NCBI GenBank assembly: GCA_030425825.1 | Contig: JAUHZY010000001.1 | Location: 1,606,834-1,662,365 of the forward strand | Direction: 5' to 3' | DNA: 55,532 nucleotides | DNA from: Alphaproteobacteria bacterium | GTDB lineage: Bacteria > Pseudomonadota > Alphaproteobacteria > JAUHZY01 | Part shown: piece by piece, positions 48,153-55,532 of the stretch | Numbering within the stretch: position 1 is the stretch's first letter | Layout of the letters: every line of letters starts with the position of its first letter | The notes under the pieces: model-generated | Databases searched by the model: none | Told to the model about the DNA's origin: nothing | What the model saw: the letters and a program-made list of their open reading frames with translations, nothing else | Translations under genes and position numbers: made by a program

Positions 48153-49892
48153 ATGCAAAAACTTTTCAAACTTTCTTTACTGTTCTTATTTGTGTTTGTT
48201 GCTGCTTGTGGTGAAGAACCACCACCCGCACCAACACCACCGCCTTTGGAAATACCAGAGAATGATGATACATTTTCCAATGTTCTCAAGTTGCCACCAA
48301 GGCGTCCCGCACGTGGTGAGTTGACGCCACCAGAAGTTAAGCTTCTTGAGCTAAAGCCAGATGAGGCTGCACAAAAGATCGTTATTTTTTCAAATACAGG
48401 GCAGTTACCTCTTAAGATAAAAGGGCTGAGAAGTACCGGAAACAATGCAAAAATCTCTGTTGAAGGAAGTTGTAAGCCAGATCTGGAAATTGACCCAGGC
48501 CAAGGATGTGACTTGTCAGTAAAGTTTGAGGGCGCAAAAGCCCAAGCGCCCCTTAAAAGTGAAGTGATCATTTTTCATGATGGTGATAATGCGCCATCAT
48601 TTTTGCCTATCACAGTTGAGGTTGTGAAGCCGCCGGAGCCACCTGCGCCTCCGCCAGAGCCAGAACCAGAGCCAGAACCGGCCCCTGCGCCTGCACCAAG
48701 ACCTGTTGTTCAGGCTCCTCGTCCTGCGCCTCCCCCAAGAGTTGAGGCACCTGCGCCTCCCCCTCCTGTCATTCGGCGTGTATCACCGGTTGCACCATAT
48801 GGAAAAACACTTAGCGCCATCGCTTTAAAAAGATCGGATAGCGGTATTAAAATTCATCTCGCTGAAGATGCCCTTGATGAAGGCGATCAAATAACACAAT
48901 ATCGTATGAAGGATTCAAATTGGGATCGTGAAGAGCTTTTGTCTGATGAAGGTCTTTTCCCTAAAACAACCTCTACGTTTCCTGTCGATCGTACAAGAAT
49001 TATTACAGCTGATCGGCATATTGCTGCAATTCTAGAGACGCCAATTAATGGATCTTTTGGTGGACGCGTTGTTGCCGTTGTTGAGAGAAATATTTATGGC
49101 AGTGATGGCCGTAAAGTGTTGATTCCTGCAGGCGCTCGCGTCGTAGGGGAGTCTCCTGCAACAGAGGGTAGTTCAGACCCAAGGATTGAAGTGACGTGGA
49201 GTCGCGTTTTACTGCCTAATGGCGCAACAATTGCGATTGACTTTACAAGCGCTGATTCGGTCGGACAGCATGGTGTCGTTGGTCATGTGCAAAAGCGATA
49301 TTTTGAACGTTATGGGGTTCCTTTGCTTGTTTCTGCCATTGCAGGTTTGACACGTATAGCAGTCAGTGATTCAACAAGTGGTGTGACGGTTATTGGTGAT
49401 ACTGTGACAGAAACATCAGAGTCACCGAAGCAAGAAGCTATTGACGATTTAACACAAGAGCTTTCGGATAAGCTGACGGAGGCACTGGAAGAAAATACAG
49501 AAGCAGAGCCTGTAGTTACAGTCCCCGCAGGAACGCGTATTTATGTTGTGCCAACGCGTGATATTTTCTTGCGAGATCCAGAGACATTTGTTGCAGCAGC
49601 AGATGAGAGAGAGCGATTAAGAGGAAAAATTTCTGATCTTTCGGTTGAGAGGTTCATCGCAGATCCAAAACAATATCCAGAAAGATATGGCATATCAGAG
49701 CTTCCACGTGTTGAACAAGCACCAGAAAGGCGTTTTCAGCCTTCAACATCCCCGAGCGGATACGATCGTGCTCAGCCAAACTGGGCGCCTGCATTAAGAC
49801 TGCCACCAAGCAGTCCTCTTGCGCCAAGCCCAGTTCCGCAAGGACAAGCTGGCAACAGGCCTTCAGAAAACAGCGGACCGCCTCTTAAATAG
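48153..49892 (+). CDS. virB10: VirB10/TrbI-family T4SS protein, predicted lipoprotein with ASH-like domain
   Basis: Probable envelope-spanning scaffold of a type IV secretion system. The N-terminus is a lipoprotein signal (lipobox VAAC, C19) in place of the usual VirB10 inner-membrane helix. A beta-rich domain (about 60-158) reads like an ASH/choice-of-anchor module (FSNTGQLPLKIKGL, a C107/C119 pair, DPGQGCDLSVKF). A proline-rich stretch (about 160-208) leads to the TrbI/VirB10 domain (about 275-475): ETPINGSFGGRVVAVVERN, IPAGARVVGES and VPAGTRIYVVPTRD. A Pro-rich tail follows. Position ahead of virB11 and virD4 supports the call. The N-terminal architecture is unusual. Confidence 0.85.
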   Translation: MQKLFKLSLLFLFVFVAACGEEPPPAPTPPPLEIPENDDTFSNVLKLPPRRPARGELTPPEVKLLELKPDEAAQKIVIFSNTGQLPLKIKGLRSTGNNAKISVEGSCKPDLEIDPGQGCDLSVKFEGAKAQAPLKSEVIIFHDGDNAPSFLPITVEVVKPPEPPAPPPEPEPEPEPAPAPAPRPVVQAPRPAPPPRVEAPAPPPPVIRRVSPVAPYGKTLSAIALKRSDSGIKIHLAEDALDEGDQITQYRMKDSNWDREELLSDEGLFPKTTSTFPVDRTRIITADRHIAAILETPINGSFGGRVVAVVERNIYGSDGRKVLIPAGARVVGESPATEGSSDPRIEVTWSRVLLPNGATIAIDFTSADSVGQHGVVGHVQKRYFERYGVPLLVSAIAGLTRIAVSDSTSGVTVIGDTVTETSESPKQEAIDDLTQELSDKLTEALEENTEAEPVVTVPAGTRIYVVPTRDIFLRDPETFVAAADERERLRGKISDLSVERFIADPKQYPERYGISELPRVEQAPERRFQPSTSPSGYDRAQPNWAPALRLPPSSPLAPSPVPQGQAGNRPSENSGPPLK

Positions 49893-49947: not shown

Positions 49948-51006
49948 ATGAAAACAATAAATCCATTACTGGCAGCTGCAATTCGTCCATTGGCTGCGTA
50001 TTATAGCAATCCTGGCCTAGAAGAAATAGCCATTAACCGTCCAGGAGAAGTTTGGTTAAAACACGCTGGTGGTGGTGATAAAAAGCTGAATAGTCATTCG
50101 GGGTGGGAGGCTGTTGATGCACCTGAAATTACTTACAACTACCTTGAAGACCTTTGTGTTCAGCTTTCAAACGTGACAAAGCAGAAATTTGATCCCGAAA
50201 TGTCGCCTGTTCTTTATGCTGACTTGCCAGAAGGACACAGATTTACGTCTATTTTAGGGCGAAATGTTCAGTATGATAACTTTGATGATAAAGGTGTTGC
50301 GATCGCGATTCGTCTTTATTCTCCTGATCGTGTGATTGGTCTAGAGAAGTTTGGTCTTACGGAAGAGTCCGCAGACCTAGAAGTAGCAGATGATCATTCG
50401 GGACAAAGAAAACGTTATTCAGAATCCCCTTTAGAAGATCTTGTTGGGGCTGTTCAGAATGGTGAAGCCGTTCTGATTTCTGGGGCGACAGCAACAGGGA
50501 AAACGACTTTTCTTAACAACTTAATAAGCCGTATTGAAGAAGATCGTCGTGTGGTCACGGTTGAAGACGTGCGCGAGCTGCGTGTGCCACATAAAAATCG
50601 TGTGCATTTGGTCGCCAGTCGAACGAATTCCTCGACGGATGTAGATGATCGTGCGCTTCTTGATATTGTTGTGCGGATGACACCAGACGTTTTGATTTGT
50701 GGTGAGATTGGTATGAAAAATGCTGCGGGTATTTACCGCCTGATGACGACCGGACATTCGAATTTTATGTGTACTATTCATGCGCATAGTCCAGAGCTGG
50801 CAATTCGTGCCTTTTGGCAAAACCTATCACAATCAATGCCTGGCTTGGACCCTAAATCAGTGATGGATGTTATCTCTGCAGGGTTTGGTCGTATTGTTCA
50901 AATTGAACGTCAGGGACGTAATCGTGTTGTAACGGCAATTGATATGCCAAAATTAAGTGCTGAAGAATTTACAGAAAAAGGGTATGGTGAAAATCCTCCT
51001 AAGTAG
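49948..51006 (+). CDS. virB11: VirB11-family T4SS ATPase
   Basis: Hexameric cytosolic traffic ATPase that powers pilus formation and substrate transfer in T4SS. The N-terminal domain has the VirB11 hallmark GLEEIAINRPGEVWLK. In the C-terminal domain, Walker A is GATATGKTT (179-187), VVTVEDVREL is the Asp box, PDVLICGEIG the Walker B and TGHSNFMCTIHAHSP the His box. Length 352 aa is normal. AAGGGA is 9 nt before the ATG. It lies between virB10 and virD4, the same order as in Rickettsiales vir clusters. Confidence 0.93.
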   Translation: MKTINPLLAAAIRPLAAYYSNPGLEEIAINRPGEVWLKHAGGGDKKLNSHSGWEAVDAPEITYNYLEDLCVQLSNVTKQKFDPEMSPVLYADLPEGHRFTSILGRNVQYDNFDDKGVAIAIRLYSPDRVIGLEKFGLTEESADLEVADDHSGQRKRYSESPLEDLVGAVQNGEAVLISGATATGKTTFLNNLISRIEEDRRVVTVEDVRELRVPHKNRVHLVASRTNSSTDVDDRALLDIVVRMTPDVLICGEIGMKNAAGIYRLMTTGHSNFMCTIHAHSPELAIRAFWQNLSQSMPGLDPKSVMDVISAGFGRIVQIERQGRNRVVTAIDMPKLSAEEFTEKGYGENPPK

Positions 51007-51019
51007 GTCAGGTTAAAGA

Positions 51020-53746
51020 ATGTTTTTTAATAACTACAGAATGTTGAATGCCGGTAAGGCCCATCTGCGCGCTAAGCTTGATTGGGTAAACTGGAACGTA
51101 AGGACGTCTGTTTTTGGCGTTATTGTTGGGTTTACATTATTATTTTTGGCCTATCCGTTTTCAATGGTTTTGGAAATGGGCTTTAACAAACAAAGCCTTT
51201 CATGGATGGGAGGGTTCTTTACAACATTTTTCCCTTACTTTTTTGATTATTGGATTCCGGCTATTTGGGATTGGATTAAGGAGTCTAATAGGAATGGTGC
51301 TTTTCTTTTACCATTATCGATGTGGATTGCGATTGTCACACCTATATTCGTCATCATTATTGGGACATCTATGAACCCTCACTGGGCTTTGCCATCACAT
51401 TTTGGTCGTGCGCGTGAGGCTGATTATAGAACAATTAAAAAGATGGGTGTGTTGAATGGCTGGCTTGTGATCTTGGGTAAATGGCAAAGAAAATATCTCA
51501 TGCTGAAAGAGACATTAACGGTCCTTTGTATGGCCCCCCCAGGAACAGGTAAAACGACAGGTGTGGTTGTGCCGACAATGTTGAGCTGTGATGCCCTGAC
51601 AATGATTGTAAACGACGTGAAGCCTGAGATCGCGAGAATGACAAGCGGATATCGTGAGACGGTGAGTTGTGTTTTTGTTCTTGAGTGGGCAGCCTCTGAT
51701 GATCCTGAGATTAATCTTTTTTACCCACGTTGGAATCCACTTTCTCCAGGCGTTATTCCACCAGCAGGTGCAAATAGAGATTTGTATATTGACCGATTAA
51801 CAAACGTTATTGTTGAGGAACCTAAGGGAAACCAAGATCCACACTGGACAATTAAGGGGCGTGCTGCGCTTGCTGGGATGATCCACTTCATCGCAGCGAA
51901 AGTTGAAAGCGGAAGTTATGAAGGGCTGCCTGCTAAGTGGCATGGCGAAGAGGCAAGCTTGCCTATGATGATCGATTGGCTGAACGAAGGTGTTTATAAC
52001 GCTAGTAAGGTGATCGAAGAGTTACGCCAGACAGATCCCAATGCTGCTTTGATGGCTGATCCCATGAGAGAGTTTTTAAGTGATGCAGCAAATGAGTCTA
52101 TGGAAAATAACTATAGTAGTCGTGCCTTTCTTGAACTAAACCAGCTTGCAAATACCCCTGATAAAGAACGTGGTTCTATCTTAAGTACGATGGATGGTGG
52201 TCTTATTGTTTTCAAAAACTCGGCTGTTGTTGCGCGCACGAGTGCTTCAGATTTCGAATTTATTGATACGCGTGGGATGATTGATCAAGATGATGGTCAA
52301 ATGAAGCCCATGACGGTTTATCTTTGTGTGAACCTGGAAGACGCGAAAGCCCTTGGGACGATTACGGGTATTTTTGTTGAAACCTTAACAGCTTGGCTTG
52401 TCGCGCATGCACCAGGGGCTAAAGATAAGGCTGGTCGTAAGGCTGGCCCATATCCTGTCTTGTTTGTTCTTGATGAGTTCCCGCAAATGCCTAAGCTTGA
52501 TGCCCTTATGAAGGGTCCCGAGGTTGGTCGTGGACAGAAGGTTTCATATCTGTTGATTGGACAAGACCTTGCACAGGTGGAAGAAACTTATGGGAAAACA
52601 GGTGTTGAAAGATTCTTCTCGAACTCTTTTGCCAAAATTATTTTGCCGATGAACAATGATGCTGCCGCAAAACGTATCGGTGATATGATCGGGAAAGTAA
52701 CAATTATTGAGAAAAGTAGAAGCCGTGAAGAAGGTATTGGTGCAAATGTGAACCCTTTTAAAGCTAATGTAACCAAGTCTTATAAAGAGCATATGATTTG
52801 GGCTGGTGGTGATATTTTGAATATGGAAAAAGGTATTCAGCTTGTCTTGATTCAAGGATTTACGAGACGACCAATTGTTTGCCAAACACCATTTTTCTTT
52901 AAAGATCCGAAATTTAGAAGAATGGTTTCTCCTGGGGATGGTGGGGTTTTTCCTGCTGCACCACCCATGCCAGACTGGAAGATTCGTGAACGAATAGAGA
53001 AATATCAAGAAGAAAAGAAAGAGCTTGAAAAGTTATCGGCAGAAGGCAAAGCACCCACTGCGCCAGGACAGTCCCAACAAGCACAAGCAGCACAGCAACA
53101 GGATGAATCCATTTATGCACGGATTATTATTATGTTTAGCGATGTTGTTGCAATTGACGAAGATACAGACACAGCAATTATGGAAATTGCTTGTGCGGAA
53201 CTTCAAGATGGTGAGGTTACAGGAAATAATTTCCATATTTTTTGTAAGCTATCAGCAAGTGACCTTGAAGAATATAAAGAGAATGTTGCGGAAAGGGTGC
53301 CTGAATGGCTAGATTCTTACGCTGTGAGTGTAGAAAGGCTGGGTGACGAAACAGATCCAGAGAGGCGCGCGGAAGCTTTAGCGTCTGAAGAAGCAAAAGA
53401 GGTGAGCGAAAAAGTGCCTTTATTCTCTGACATTGCCTCAGAATTTATTGAATGGATTAACCCATCTCCTGTTGTTTCCTATAACGCAGGGCTGGAGTTT
53501 GGTGTTTTAAACCCTGAGCTTATGAAGGCAGATTATGATCCTATTCCGGGCGAAAGAATTTTCTCGGTGATTGATTGGTCTAAAGAAAACCTACCTGACG
53601 CTAACAGCTCTATCATAGGCCTTGCGAATCATTTTGGTGTTGATGCTGTTGAGGAAGAACATGGCTTGAGATATTTACAATATCTTGCGGGCATCTACTT
53701 AAAAGTTGAAGAGATTGAAATCAATAATATGATGGCAACTTCATAA
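51020..53746 (+). CDS. virD4: VirD4/TraG-type T4SS coupling ATPase fused to a degenerate DnaQ-like exonuclease domain
   Basis: Inner-membrane ATPase that brings substrates to the T4SS channel. Two membrane regions (about 30-52 and 95-116) precede the ATPase domain with Walker A PPGTGKTT (173-180), Walker B VLFVLDEF (480-487) and a GQDLAQVEETYG segment. After a Gln/Ala-rich linker (about 655-697), a 200-residue C-terminal domain aligns by eye with DNA polymerase III epsilon: TGNNFHIFCKL, ASEFIEWINPSPVVSYNAGL and HGLRYLQYLAGIYLKV. The exonuclease acidic residues are lost (no D-x-E in the first motif, E826 for Asp, L886 for Asp); H881 remains. At 908 aa it is much longer than VirD4 (about 600-650). 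Confidence 0.88.
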   Translation: MFFNNYRMLNAGKAHLRAKLDWVNWNVRTSVFGVIVGFTLLFLAYPFSMVLEMGFNKQSLSWMGGFFTTFFPYFFDYWIPAIWDWIKESNRNGAFLLPLSMWIAIVTPIFVIIIGTSMNPHWALPSHFGRAREADYRTIKKMGVLNGWLVILGKWQRKYLMLKETLTVLCMAPPGTGKTTGVVVPTMLSCDALTMIVNDVKPEIARMTSGYRETVSCVFVLEWAASDDPEINLFYPRWNPLSPGVIPPAGANRDLYIDRLTNVIVEEPKGNQDPHWTIKGRAALAGMIHFIAAKVESGSYEGLPAKWHGEEASLPMMIDWLNEGVYNASKVIEELRQTDPNAALMADPMREFLSDAANESMENNYSSRAFLELNQLANTPDKERGSILSTMDGGLIVFKNSAVVARTSASDFEFIDTRGMIDQDDGQMKPMTVYLCVNLEDAKALGTITGIFVETLTAWLVAHAPGAKDKAGRKAGPYPVLFVLDEFPQMPKLDALMKGPEVGRGQKVSYLLIGQDLAQVEETYGKTGVERFFSNSFAKIILPMNNDAAAKRIGDMIGKVTIIEKSRSREEGIGANVNPFKANVTKSYKEHMIWAGGDILNMEKGIQLVLIQGFTRRPIVCQTPFFFKDPKFRRMVSPGDGGVFPAAPPMPDWKIRERIEKYQEEKKELEKLSAEGKAPTAPGQSQQAQAAQQQDESIYARIIIMFSDVVAIDEDTDTAIMEIACAELQDGEVTGNNFHIFCKLSASDLEEYKENVAERVPEWLDSYAVSVERLGDETDPERRAEALASEEAKEVSEKVPLFSDIASEFIEWINPSPVVSYNAGLEFGVLNPELMKADYDPIPGERIFSVIDWSKENLPDANSSIIGLANHFGVDAVEEEHGLRYLQYLAGIYLKVEEIEINNMMATS

Positions 53747-53751
53747 AAGTG

Positions 53752-54249
53752 CTAATGTGCTGAAGGCTTTTTTGTAGGCATTGGGGGGACAGGCTTCTTG
53801 GTAGGCGCCGGTTTTTCTTCAGGTTTTTTCTGAATATCTAGGGTGTTCGCAGTTAATGTTGCACTTAAAGGATGACCGTCACAATCCACGCCAACACACA
53901 TTTTTTCTATTTTCCATGTGCTAAGAGGGTTAAGATTCACAGCACTGTGAAGTGCAGCCCACCACTCATAATAAGATTCAATCTTAGGGAAGTTTATCAT
54001 AATGTTTTTTGAGCTGCTGAGAACCTTGCTCTCTGGGTAACTTTTTTTCAAATACTCTTCTACGGCTTTATATTCTTTCTTATTCATATCGCGCAGATGT
54101 GTTTCAGGCAGCTGAAGGGAAACCCCTTCTTTCGGCAAGTTATTGTGGTCAATTGTTTCAGGTTTTTGCTGAACAAAGCTGATGCCGATGGCCATCATAA
54201 GGATGGCGCACCCCCATATGCCAAGAATAATTATTTTTGACTTATCCAT
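53752..54249 (-). CDS. Bitopic membrane protein of unknown function, GspM/PilO-like
   Basis: Not recognised as a named family. One N-terminal membrane helix (about residues 5-26) is followed by a periplasmic domain with a predicted alpha-beta-alpha-beta-beta order: helix at KKEYKAVEEYLKKSYP, strand NIMINFP, helix YYEWWAALHSAV, strands WKIEKMCVG and LSATLTANTL. That order is the ferredoxin-like fold of GspM/PilO assembly-platform proteins. The C-terminal 25 residues are Pro/Lys-rich. It begins 1 bp after its upstream partner ends and is convergent with virD4 (5-bp gap). The GspM/PilO (or IncI PilP) resemblance is inference from pattern only. Confidence 0.55.
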   Translation of the reverse strand: MDKSKIIILGIWGCAILMMAIGISFVQQKPETIDHNNLPKEGVSLQLPETHLRDMNKKEYKAVEEYLKKSYPESKVLSSSKNIMINFPKIESYYEWWAALHSAVNLNPLSTWKIEKMCVGVDCDGHPLSATLTANTLDIQKKPEEKPAPTKKPVPPMPTKKPSAH

Positions 54250-54250
54250 T

Positions 54251-55532
54251 TTAATTCCTTACCTCTATCACGACCCAATCTGTTTCATCTTTTTTGACGT
54301 TTACTTTAGAGCCAAATTTTTCAAATATCTTTGTCGGCGTTGTTTCTGGCATTTTAAAATCCCAAGAGAACTTACCGTCATTCAAATGAACTTTTTGTAC
54401 GTATCCACCAAACTTATTTGCAAAAAGAGATATACGATGAATATCGTCTAGCGTTGATAAGGCAGGGCTTCTTGTTTGTGAAAACTCTGTTATCTGAGAG
54501 AAGTTCTCATTTATTTTCTTTGTATCAATTGACTGAATCTTAATTGTTTTAGGAGGTTGAACATCAGGAATCATTAAAGATGCTATGACCATGCTGATAC
54601 CCAACATCATAAAAAATACCCCTGTTATTGCAGCGATAGATAATGCTTTTGGAAGTTGGTCGAGTTTTGAAAAAATACCTCCATCTAGTTGGGTGGGTGA
54701 AGGATTAAAAGAAGGTTCTTCTGGGAAGGTTTCTTCCGTCATTTCGCTGTATGGTTCTTCAAAATGCTCTTCAACAGATTCCATCTCTGGTTCTGTTTCA
54801 AGGGCTGTGTTTTCATGATTCTCTTTCTCAATTTCTTCGAAGCTATTGGCATCATATTGTTGCCATAGTCCTCCTTCCATCTGGTCAACTTGAACAAAGT
54901 TCAAACCTTCATTTGATTCAACAAATTGATCCAATTTATCAAGAGGGATAATAGCATGTGCAAAGTCACCAACGGTTTTGATAATAATCAGATAAGATGA
55001 CTCGAAAGATAGGATATATGCGCCATTACCTTCATGATTTTGCATATTAGGTAGGGATGCTGTTAGTTGTGTTTTGCAATGTGCATGCTGGAAGAACTCT
55101 TCTTTTGCAGCAATGAGATACACATGTTCATCATCAAAACTGGTTATCATGCGTACATTTTCAGTACCTAGAGTTTCTTTTGCAAACATATATGCCAAAT
55201 GTTCTGGCGGAACATTATGGTCAAAGTCGATTGCTTTTACCAAAAGATCTGTTGGTGTAAATTCCTGAATATCATCTTGTGCAGCGGTCGTTTCAGTATT
55301 GCTATCAGCTTCTTCAGGTGTTTCTTCTGATACTTCGTTTGCCTCATCATCTGAAGACTCAATTTCGTCTTGACGCTCCTCTGAAAACTCTTCAGCATTT
55401 TCTGCTTCTGCTTCTGCTTCTGCTTCTGCTTCTGCTTCTGCTTCTGCTTCTGCTTCTGCTTCTGCTTCTGCTTCTGCTTCTGCTTCTGCTTCTGCTTCTG
55501 CTTCTGCTTCTGCTTCTGCTTCTGCTTCTGCT
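54251..55532 (-). CDS. Bitopic membrane protein with N-terminal Glu-Ala repeat, GspL/PilO-like (5' partial)
   Basis: Not recognised with confidence. The frame has no stop to the window edge, so the start lies outside; a TTG at 55243 is inside the frame and has no support as a start. In order: at least 44 residues of alternating Glu-Ala, an acidic stretch, a cytoplasmic domain of about 120 residues (from LLVKAIDFDHN to VQVDQ), a second acidic linker, one membrane helix (LSIAAITGVFFMMLGISMVIASLM), and a 100-residue periplasmic domain with helix-strand-strand repeats. The layout matches GspL, BfpC/TcpD or IncI PilO proteins. Its stop is 1 bp before the GspM/PilO-like gene. Confidence 0.55.
   Translation of the reverse strand, partial: AEAEAEAEAEAEAEAEAEAEAEAEAEAEAEAEAEAEAEAEAEAENAEEFSEERQDEIESSDDEANEVSEETPEEADSNTETTAAQDDIQEFTPTDLLVKAIDFDHNVPPEHLAYMFAKETLGTENVRMITSFDDEHVYLIAAKEEFFQHAHCKTQLTASLPNMQNHEGNGAYILSFESSYLIIIKTVGDFAHAIIPLDKLDQFVESNEGLNFVQVDQMEGGLWQQYDANSFEEIEKENHENTALETEPEMESVEEHFEEPYSEMTEETFPEEPSFNPSPTQLDGGIFSKLDQLPKALSIAAITGVFFMMLGISMVIASLMIPDVQPPKTIKIQSIDTKKINENFSQITEFSQTRSPALSTLDDIHRISLFANKFGGYVQKVHLNDGKFSWDFKMPETTPTKIFEKFGSKVNVKKDETDWVVIEVRN
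55401..55532. repeat. Perfect hexanucleotide tandem repeat, (TCTGCT)22, running off the window
   Basis: Twenty-two uninterrupted copies of TCTGCT fill the last 132 bases. On the minus strand they lie in frame and encode alternating Ala and Glu (GCA GAA) near the N-terminus of the GspL/PilO-like protein. Because the unit is 6 bp, gain or loss of copies changes linker length without a frameshift. The array continues past the edge, so the true copy number is unknown; short reads could not span it, and the window may end here for that reason. Confidence 0.95.

Follow-up and report, generated by a model that had tools for sequence, protein, structure and literature searches.

VirB10 is described in a 2025 review as the only known subunit that bridges both membrane complexes of the type IV secretion system (T4SS) (PMC12857230), and in R388 and other models it passes through the inner membrane next to VirB6, extends to cytoplasmic VirB3/VirB4 and contacts VirD4 (PMC12624023). 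A virB10 gene found in a 55,532-nucleotide stretch of an alphaproteobacterial genome (GCA_030425825.1), hereafter the window, raises the question of how such a subunit is anchored when its protein appears to begin with a lipoprotein signal. The original prediction, made from the sequence, was that a lipobox and a beta-rich domain had replaced the N-terminal membrane helix, thereby changing the link between the inner and outer membranes.

The VirB10 protein and its N-terminus

The gene lies at 48153..49892 on the forward strand and encodes a 579-aa lipoprotein-type VirB10, as judged from the ORF, its PF03743 match (E 4.4e-37) and a 13-row alignment of relatives (alignment A3). The ORF list places its ATG at 48153, and the N-terminal sequence of the ORF reads MQKLFKLSLLFLFVFVAACGEEPPP. 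The ATG comes right after a TAA in the same frame, which rules out a hidden upstream start that would add a membrane helix, an alternative that the original prediction had raised against its own reading of the gene. The protein consists, in order, of a lipobox, an ASH/PapD-like domain, a Pro-rich linker and a TrbI core. The linker (residues 158-276; 48624..48980, +) is rich in Pro, Glu and Ala, contains 28 Pro and was delimited by composition and by low pLDDT from about residue 202. The TrbI/VirB10 C-terminal core (residues 284-472; 49002..49568, +) was identified by Pfam, profile-matched structures and AF2. It covers positions 2-187 of the 188 in the PF03743 model, above the cut-off, is covered by the ComB10/VirB10 models of NCBIfam, and matches solved ComB10, TrwE, VirB10, TraF and CagY structures by profile; two antenna helices are modelled within it (378-404 and 425-448). 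The proline-rich spacer and normal TrbI core are thus as had been predicted. The full-length AF2 model has a mean pLDDT of 54 and is useful for the ASH domain and a rough core only. The core and a virB11/virD4 neighborhood that keeps the same order in relatives place the protein in the VirB10/TrbI family (PF03743), and the product of 48153-49892 is the VirB10 of a T4SS encoded on the chromosome. It shares its TrbI core, antenna helices, Pro-rich linker and virB11/virD4 adjacency with canonical VirB10/TrbI/TrwE/TraF proteins, but lacks their cytoplasmic tail and inner-membrane helix and has the lipobox and ASH domain instead.

A lipoprotein signal peptide is predicted at residues 1-18 (48153..48206, +), with Lys at positions 3 and 6, an h-region and the lipobox FVAAC, and residues 2-18 are modelled by AF2 as a helix. 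Residues 1-19, MQKLFKLSLLFLFVFVAAC, satisfy a PROSITE-type (PS51257-type) lipobox rule with a predicted cut FVAAC|G, and a pattern scan found all of the usual lipoprotein features, namely a K/R n-region, an h-region and a lipobox Cys within 15-35 residues. The predicted lipidation site is Cys19 (codon 48207..48209, +), with Gly at +2. Under the strict lipobox rule, 10/13 VirB10s of the same plan qualify; among 49 rows that are helix-anchored, split or lack a TM helix, a small number of them N-terminally cut, none does. The other three same-plan proteins miss the strict rule but retain a Cys preceded by Ala or Gly. The rule is also satisfied by two of three lipo-type VirB10s that lack the ASH domain, and by 2/55 of the ORFs in the window. 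A chance lipobox is ruled out by the invariance of this Cys in all 13 same-plan proteins (alignment A3), which are only about 30% identical to the window protein.

No TM helix was found in VirB10 after the signal; the most hydrophobic stretch is an antenna helix, with a KD of 1.47. The canonical VirB10 of the same genome, which belongs to a T4SS on contig C11, has a clear TM helix (KD 2.57). The canonical topology of a cytoplasmic tail followed by an inner-membrane helix is not found in the window protein, whose signal stops at C19. LolA and LspA are both encoded in its genome. With the lipobox in place, its Cys present in 13/13 and no other TM segment, the proposed substitution of a VAAC/C19 lipoprotein signal for the inner-membrane helix is supported, and VirB10 appears, from its sequence, to be lipid-anchored and to have no inner-membrane segment, with C19 the putative site of lipidation. 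An uncleaved signal anchor, which would make VirB10 a bitopic protein with a short helix and a Cys present by chance, is very improbable. The segment is indeed hydrophobic, with a KD of 1.82 for residues 1-19, and is preceded by Lys, but there are just ~12 hydrophobic residues ahead of C19 and no cytoplasmic tail. Moreover, a Cys after Ala, Gly or Ser is invariant across all 13 members, which share about 30% identity and differ in the flanking residues, and helix-anchored members all lack the lipobox.

The ASH domain and the diversity of VirB10 anchors

Following the lipobox is an ASH/PapD-like beta domain (residues ~50-157; 48300..48623, +), recognized by profile and Pfam hits, an AF2 model and structure matches. 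The window VirB10 searched alone matches DUF1573 (E 7e-5) and HYDIN/VesB Ig (E 3e-4) over residues 58-157 and the ASH family PF15780 at E 0.044, in each case below the curated cut-off, and NCBIfam gives a weak choice-of-anchor D match at residues 71-130. When relatives were searched singly, 24/31 matched PF15780, with a best E of 3e-10, and a profile of 31 ASH fragments (A2) matches PDB chains of FAP74, HYDIN, CFAP65 and VesB. AF2 modelled residues 20-166 as eight strands with a pLDDT of 89.5, and the nearest solved folds are ciliary FAP/HYDIN chains, P. gingivalis 2qsv, VesB and CEP192 (Z 10.9-12.8 over ~100 residues). Because the Ig-like fold is common, the fold match is silent on function, and it is the profile hits that assign the domain to the ASH family. 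On profiles and model together, the predicted ASH-like domain can be regarded as a solid assignment. Its likeness in fold and profile to the PapD-like domains of ASH, HYDIN, VesB and CEP192 (PF15780, PF22544, DUF1573) extends over the whole VirB10 domain; these known domains belong to cilia, centrosomes and secreted proteases, whereas that of VirB10 would be a periplasmic T4SS module, probably disulfide-bonded. The likely disulfide partners are Cys107 (codon 48471..48473, +) and Cys119 (codon 48507..48509, +), each invariant in 31/31 ASH fragments. Their equivalents are the only two invariant columns of profile A2, both are also invariant in alignment A3, and a C107-C119 disulfide is probable.

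In order to gather relatives, genomes of the same class were searched and full-length proteins with the same N-terminus were retained. Thirteen distinct VirB10s combine lipobox, ASH domain, linker and core, and they come from at least seven families. Nine carry seven family codes (f1, f11, f20, f33, f120, f139 and f164), and the other four are named records, from Rhodospirillaceae or Proteobacteria MAGs and one Telmatospirillum. A first scan of named genomes with the single VirB10 protein gave no match.

Other alphaproteobacterial VirB10s carry the ASH domain behind a true TM helix. They comprise proteins of 702-2831 aa (L034, L037, L084-L094, L121, L123) and plasmid-encoded VirB10s of Microvirga and Sphingosinicella and, more weakly, Erythrobacter. 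Like the window protein, they have an ASH domain with both Cys, a TrbI core and VirB8/9/11 neighbors, but their anchor is a TM helix, and many have hundreds to thousands of repeat residues between the ASH domain and the core. In a further form, the protein is split over two adjacent genes (L089, L096, L099, L103, L105-L112, L114, L116, L118, L119, L036). The N-terminal half (~1100-2250 aa) has a TM segment, an ASH domain and long runs of VIGxVxxDGxVVD-type repeats, and the C-terminal half, encoded by the next gene (~1400-1570 aa), combines a type I signal peptide with further repeats and the TrbI core. The split proteins form one well-supported clade, mostly of gut metagenome alphaproteobacteria. 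A plasmid-encoded VirB10 of Thalassospira lucentensis (L142 7692-9488) lacks a TM helix and is made up of a type I signal peptide, an additional N-terminal region, an ASH domain and a TrbI core, and Desertibaculum subflavum and two further genomes encode a lipobox VirB10 that lacks the ASH domain. Separately, VirB10s of ~365 aa in Thalassospira, Novispirillum and others (L081, L082, L083, L067) have no ordinary TM helix and carry a pair of Cys flanking a short hydrophobic segment whose last residue is Cys, an arrangement that differs from a canonical lipobox.

As helix, lipid, secreted and split forms all occur, this group of VirB10s has a labile inner-membrane anchor, and the anchor rather than the ASH domain is, by sequence comparison, the unusual part of the window protein. 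The notion that the ASH domain arrived together with the lipobox was rejected, given that helix-anchored VirB10s also carry the domain; only the anchor was exchanged. A split-off, TM-anchored ASH partner was sought in nine lipo-type genomes and none was found; each has one ASH-domain protein, VirB10 itself. On trees with long branches and no known root, the lipo-ASH rows fall into two or three adjacent lineages, and the 13 rows need 2-3 changes between helix and lipid, in either direction, although a single lipo-ASH clade is not rejected (p-AU 0.49). It is tentatively proposed, at somewhat less than even odds, that a broad group of alphaproteobacterial T4SSs has repeatedly lost the covalent bridge that VirB10 forms from inner to outer membrane, such that the outer-membrane core became detached and other proteins couple the ATPases. 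The proposed routes of loss are a lipobox (the window protein and the three ASH-less ones), a type I signal peptide (the T. lucentensis plasmid) and gene fission (one clade).

Membrane placement and the link to the ATPases

The best overall explanation, which we consider reasonably probable, is that the lipoprotein signal substitutes for the N-terminal tail and inner-membrane helix of VirB10. Under this hypothesis, Lgt would attach diacylglycerol to C19 and LspA would then cleave before the lipidated Cys, leaving a mature chain that lies entirely within the periplasm and the outer membrane. Its lipid would hold VirB10 in one membrane of the envelope, more likely the outer. The ASH domain, ~30 residues from the lipid and probably disulfide-bonded, would serve as a docking module, and the flexible Pro-rich linker would connect it to the TrbI core. 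Together with VirB9 and a distinct VirB7-like lipoprotein, this core would build the ring and channel of the outer membrane. If C19 is lipidated, VirB10 has no cytoplasmic or inner-membrane part, and contacts with VirB4, VirB6 and VirD4 at the inner membrane become impossible; the ATPases would instead be coupled to the core through VirB8 or other periplasmic contacts. The changed link between the membranes that had been predicted would follow from a lipid anchor in place of an inner-membrane helix.

An outer-membrane location of the lipid is somewhat favored, and a lipoprotein kept in the outer leaflet of the inner membrane is a less likely alternative. In the latter case, the lipid would replace the TM helix, VirB10 would still span the periplasm and the cytoplasmic tail alone would be lost. 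Helix-anchored relatives put the same ASH domain beside the inner membrane. Linker lengths also permit this placement but do not discriminate between the two membranes; the distance from anchor to core in lipo-type VirB10s is ~195-250 residues, and the ASH-core linkers of helix-anchored L038 and L056 (66-71 aa) are as short as those of the lipo types. The residue at +2 bears on both placements. By the rule known from E. coli, which is not established for alphaproteobacteria, Gly at +2 leads to the outer membrane and Asp to inner-membrane retention. The window VirB10 and most lipo-type members have Gly, which argues against retention, and four relatives (Telmatospirillum-type) have Asp, which argues for it. 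However, Asp at +2 may not mean retention in this class, because the VirB7-like protein of one related genome (G010) also has it and VirB7s elsewhere are outer-membrane proteins. LolB has been reported absent from alphaproteobacteria, and PMC4623201 regards the +2 rule as no more than a guide.

We found no description in the open-access literature searched of a lipoprotein VirB10 or of an ASH domain in VirB10, including the helix-anchored VirB10s of alphaproteobacteria. The lipid-anchored form recurs across families and contradicts the stated rule on VirB10; a machine of this design would have to join the two membrane layers differently. A conserved, natural VirB10 that lacks the tail and helix makes the bridge model testable, in that the bridge is either dispensable or supplied by another protein. 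The helix, lipid, secreted and split versions of this subunit are natural variants open to comparison, some of them in cultured organisms (Desertibaculum subflavum, Thalassospira).

The locus and the remaining secretion genes

Downstream of virB10 are virB11 (49948..51006, +; PF00437 E 3.4e-22), encoding an ATPase, and virD4 (51020..53746, +; PF02534 E 6.4e-55), encoding a 908-aa coupling protein. Residues ~793-897 of VirD4 form a DnaQ/DEDDh exonuclease-like C-terminal extension (dnaQ_proteo, TIGR01406; E 2.7e-12, below cut-off), which was not detected in the VirD4 of the other related loci compared. Two convergent genes complete the window, which ends contig C2. The first, x174 (53752..54249, -), encodes a small protein with a hydrophobic N-terminus and has homologues beside or near VirD4 in three genomes (G019, G032, G150). 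The second, an x286 homologue (54251..55531, -), is open at the contig end and begins with a long Ala-Glu repeat that probably broke the assembly there; its G019 homologue adjoins T2SSF- and T2SSE-type genes.

The start of contig C5 carries a second-set VirB9, VirB4 with VirB3, VirB8, a VirB7-like lipoprotein, a Secretin-domain lipoprotein (E 2.8e-16) and a PilP-like gene, so the set is divided between contigs, with VirB10/VirB11/VirD4 on C2 and VirB3/4/7/8/9 on C5. Gene order in G019 runs VirB8, VirB9, secretin, PilP-like, T2SSE ATPase, T2SSF protein, x286 and x174, then convergent VirD4, VirB11 and VirB10. Based on this synteny, C2 and C5 are probably neighbors, with the ATPase and T2SSF genes absent from the assembly, and their products would be expected to assemble together. 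A T2SSE-type ATPase of the G019 kind was not found elsewhere in the genome. The Secretin lipoprotein gene lies directly after VirB9 (L028 946-2346, contig C5; L032 2012-3781), followed in G019 by the T2SSE/T2SSF-type genes; a T4SS/type IVb pilus hybrid is possible.

The only VirB6 found in a search of the genome belongs to the other T4SS. This missing VirB6 and a locus broken over two contigs would fit a degenerating T4SS in which the N-terminus of VirB10 is a relic. Such decay is nevertheless highly unlikely, as the ORFs are intact, distant families preserve the virB10-virB11-virD4 order, and none of the three Cys (C19, C107 and C119) varies.

A part of the original prediction that finds no support is the merging of VirB7- and VirB10-like roles in a single chain. 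A separate small VirB7-like lipoprotein with the conserved motif PDPVGxGxD...SPCAC...W is encoded directly before VirB8, in a virB7-like position, on contig C5, in G010, in L071 and L113 and in helix-anchored relatives. VirB10, at 579 aa, is not a short VirB9-binding lipoprotein of the VirB7 kind. An N-terminal lipid on a subunit of the outer-membrane ring could act as VirB7 does and render a separate VirB7 unnecessary, but the recurrence of this small lipoprotein beside VirB8 makes that reading very improbable. A known likeness is the VirB7 of Xanthomonas with its N0 domain, which shows that core subunits gain modules (PMC3093366); it is likewise a lipid-anchored core subunit with a small added domain, but is VirB7 and not VirB10.

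The genome also encodes the canonical T4SS on contig C11, whose VirB9 (L029 11457-12434) begins with a lipobox-like LLGGC|A. Two further, near-equal TrbI-type genes of 460 aa lie on other contigs (G000 C6:939-1535 and C8:41580-42176; L003, L004), and the genome therefore carries several T4SS-like sets.
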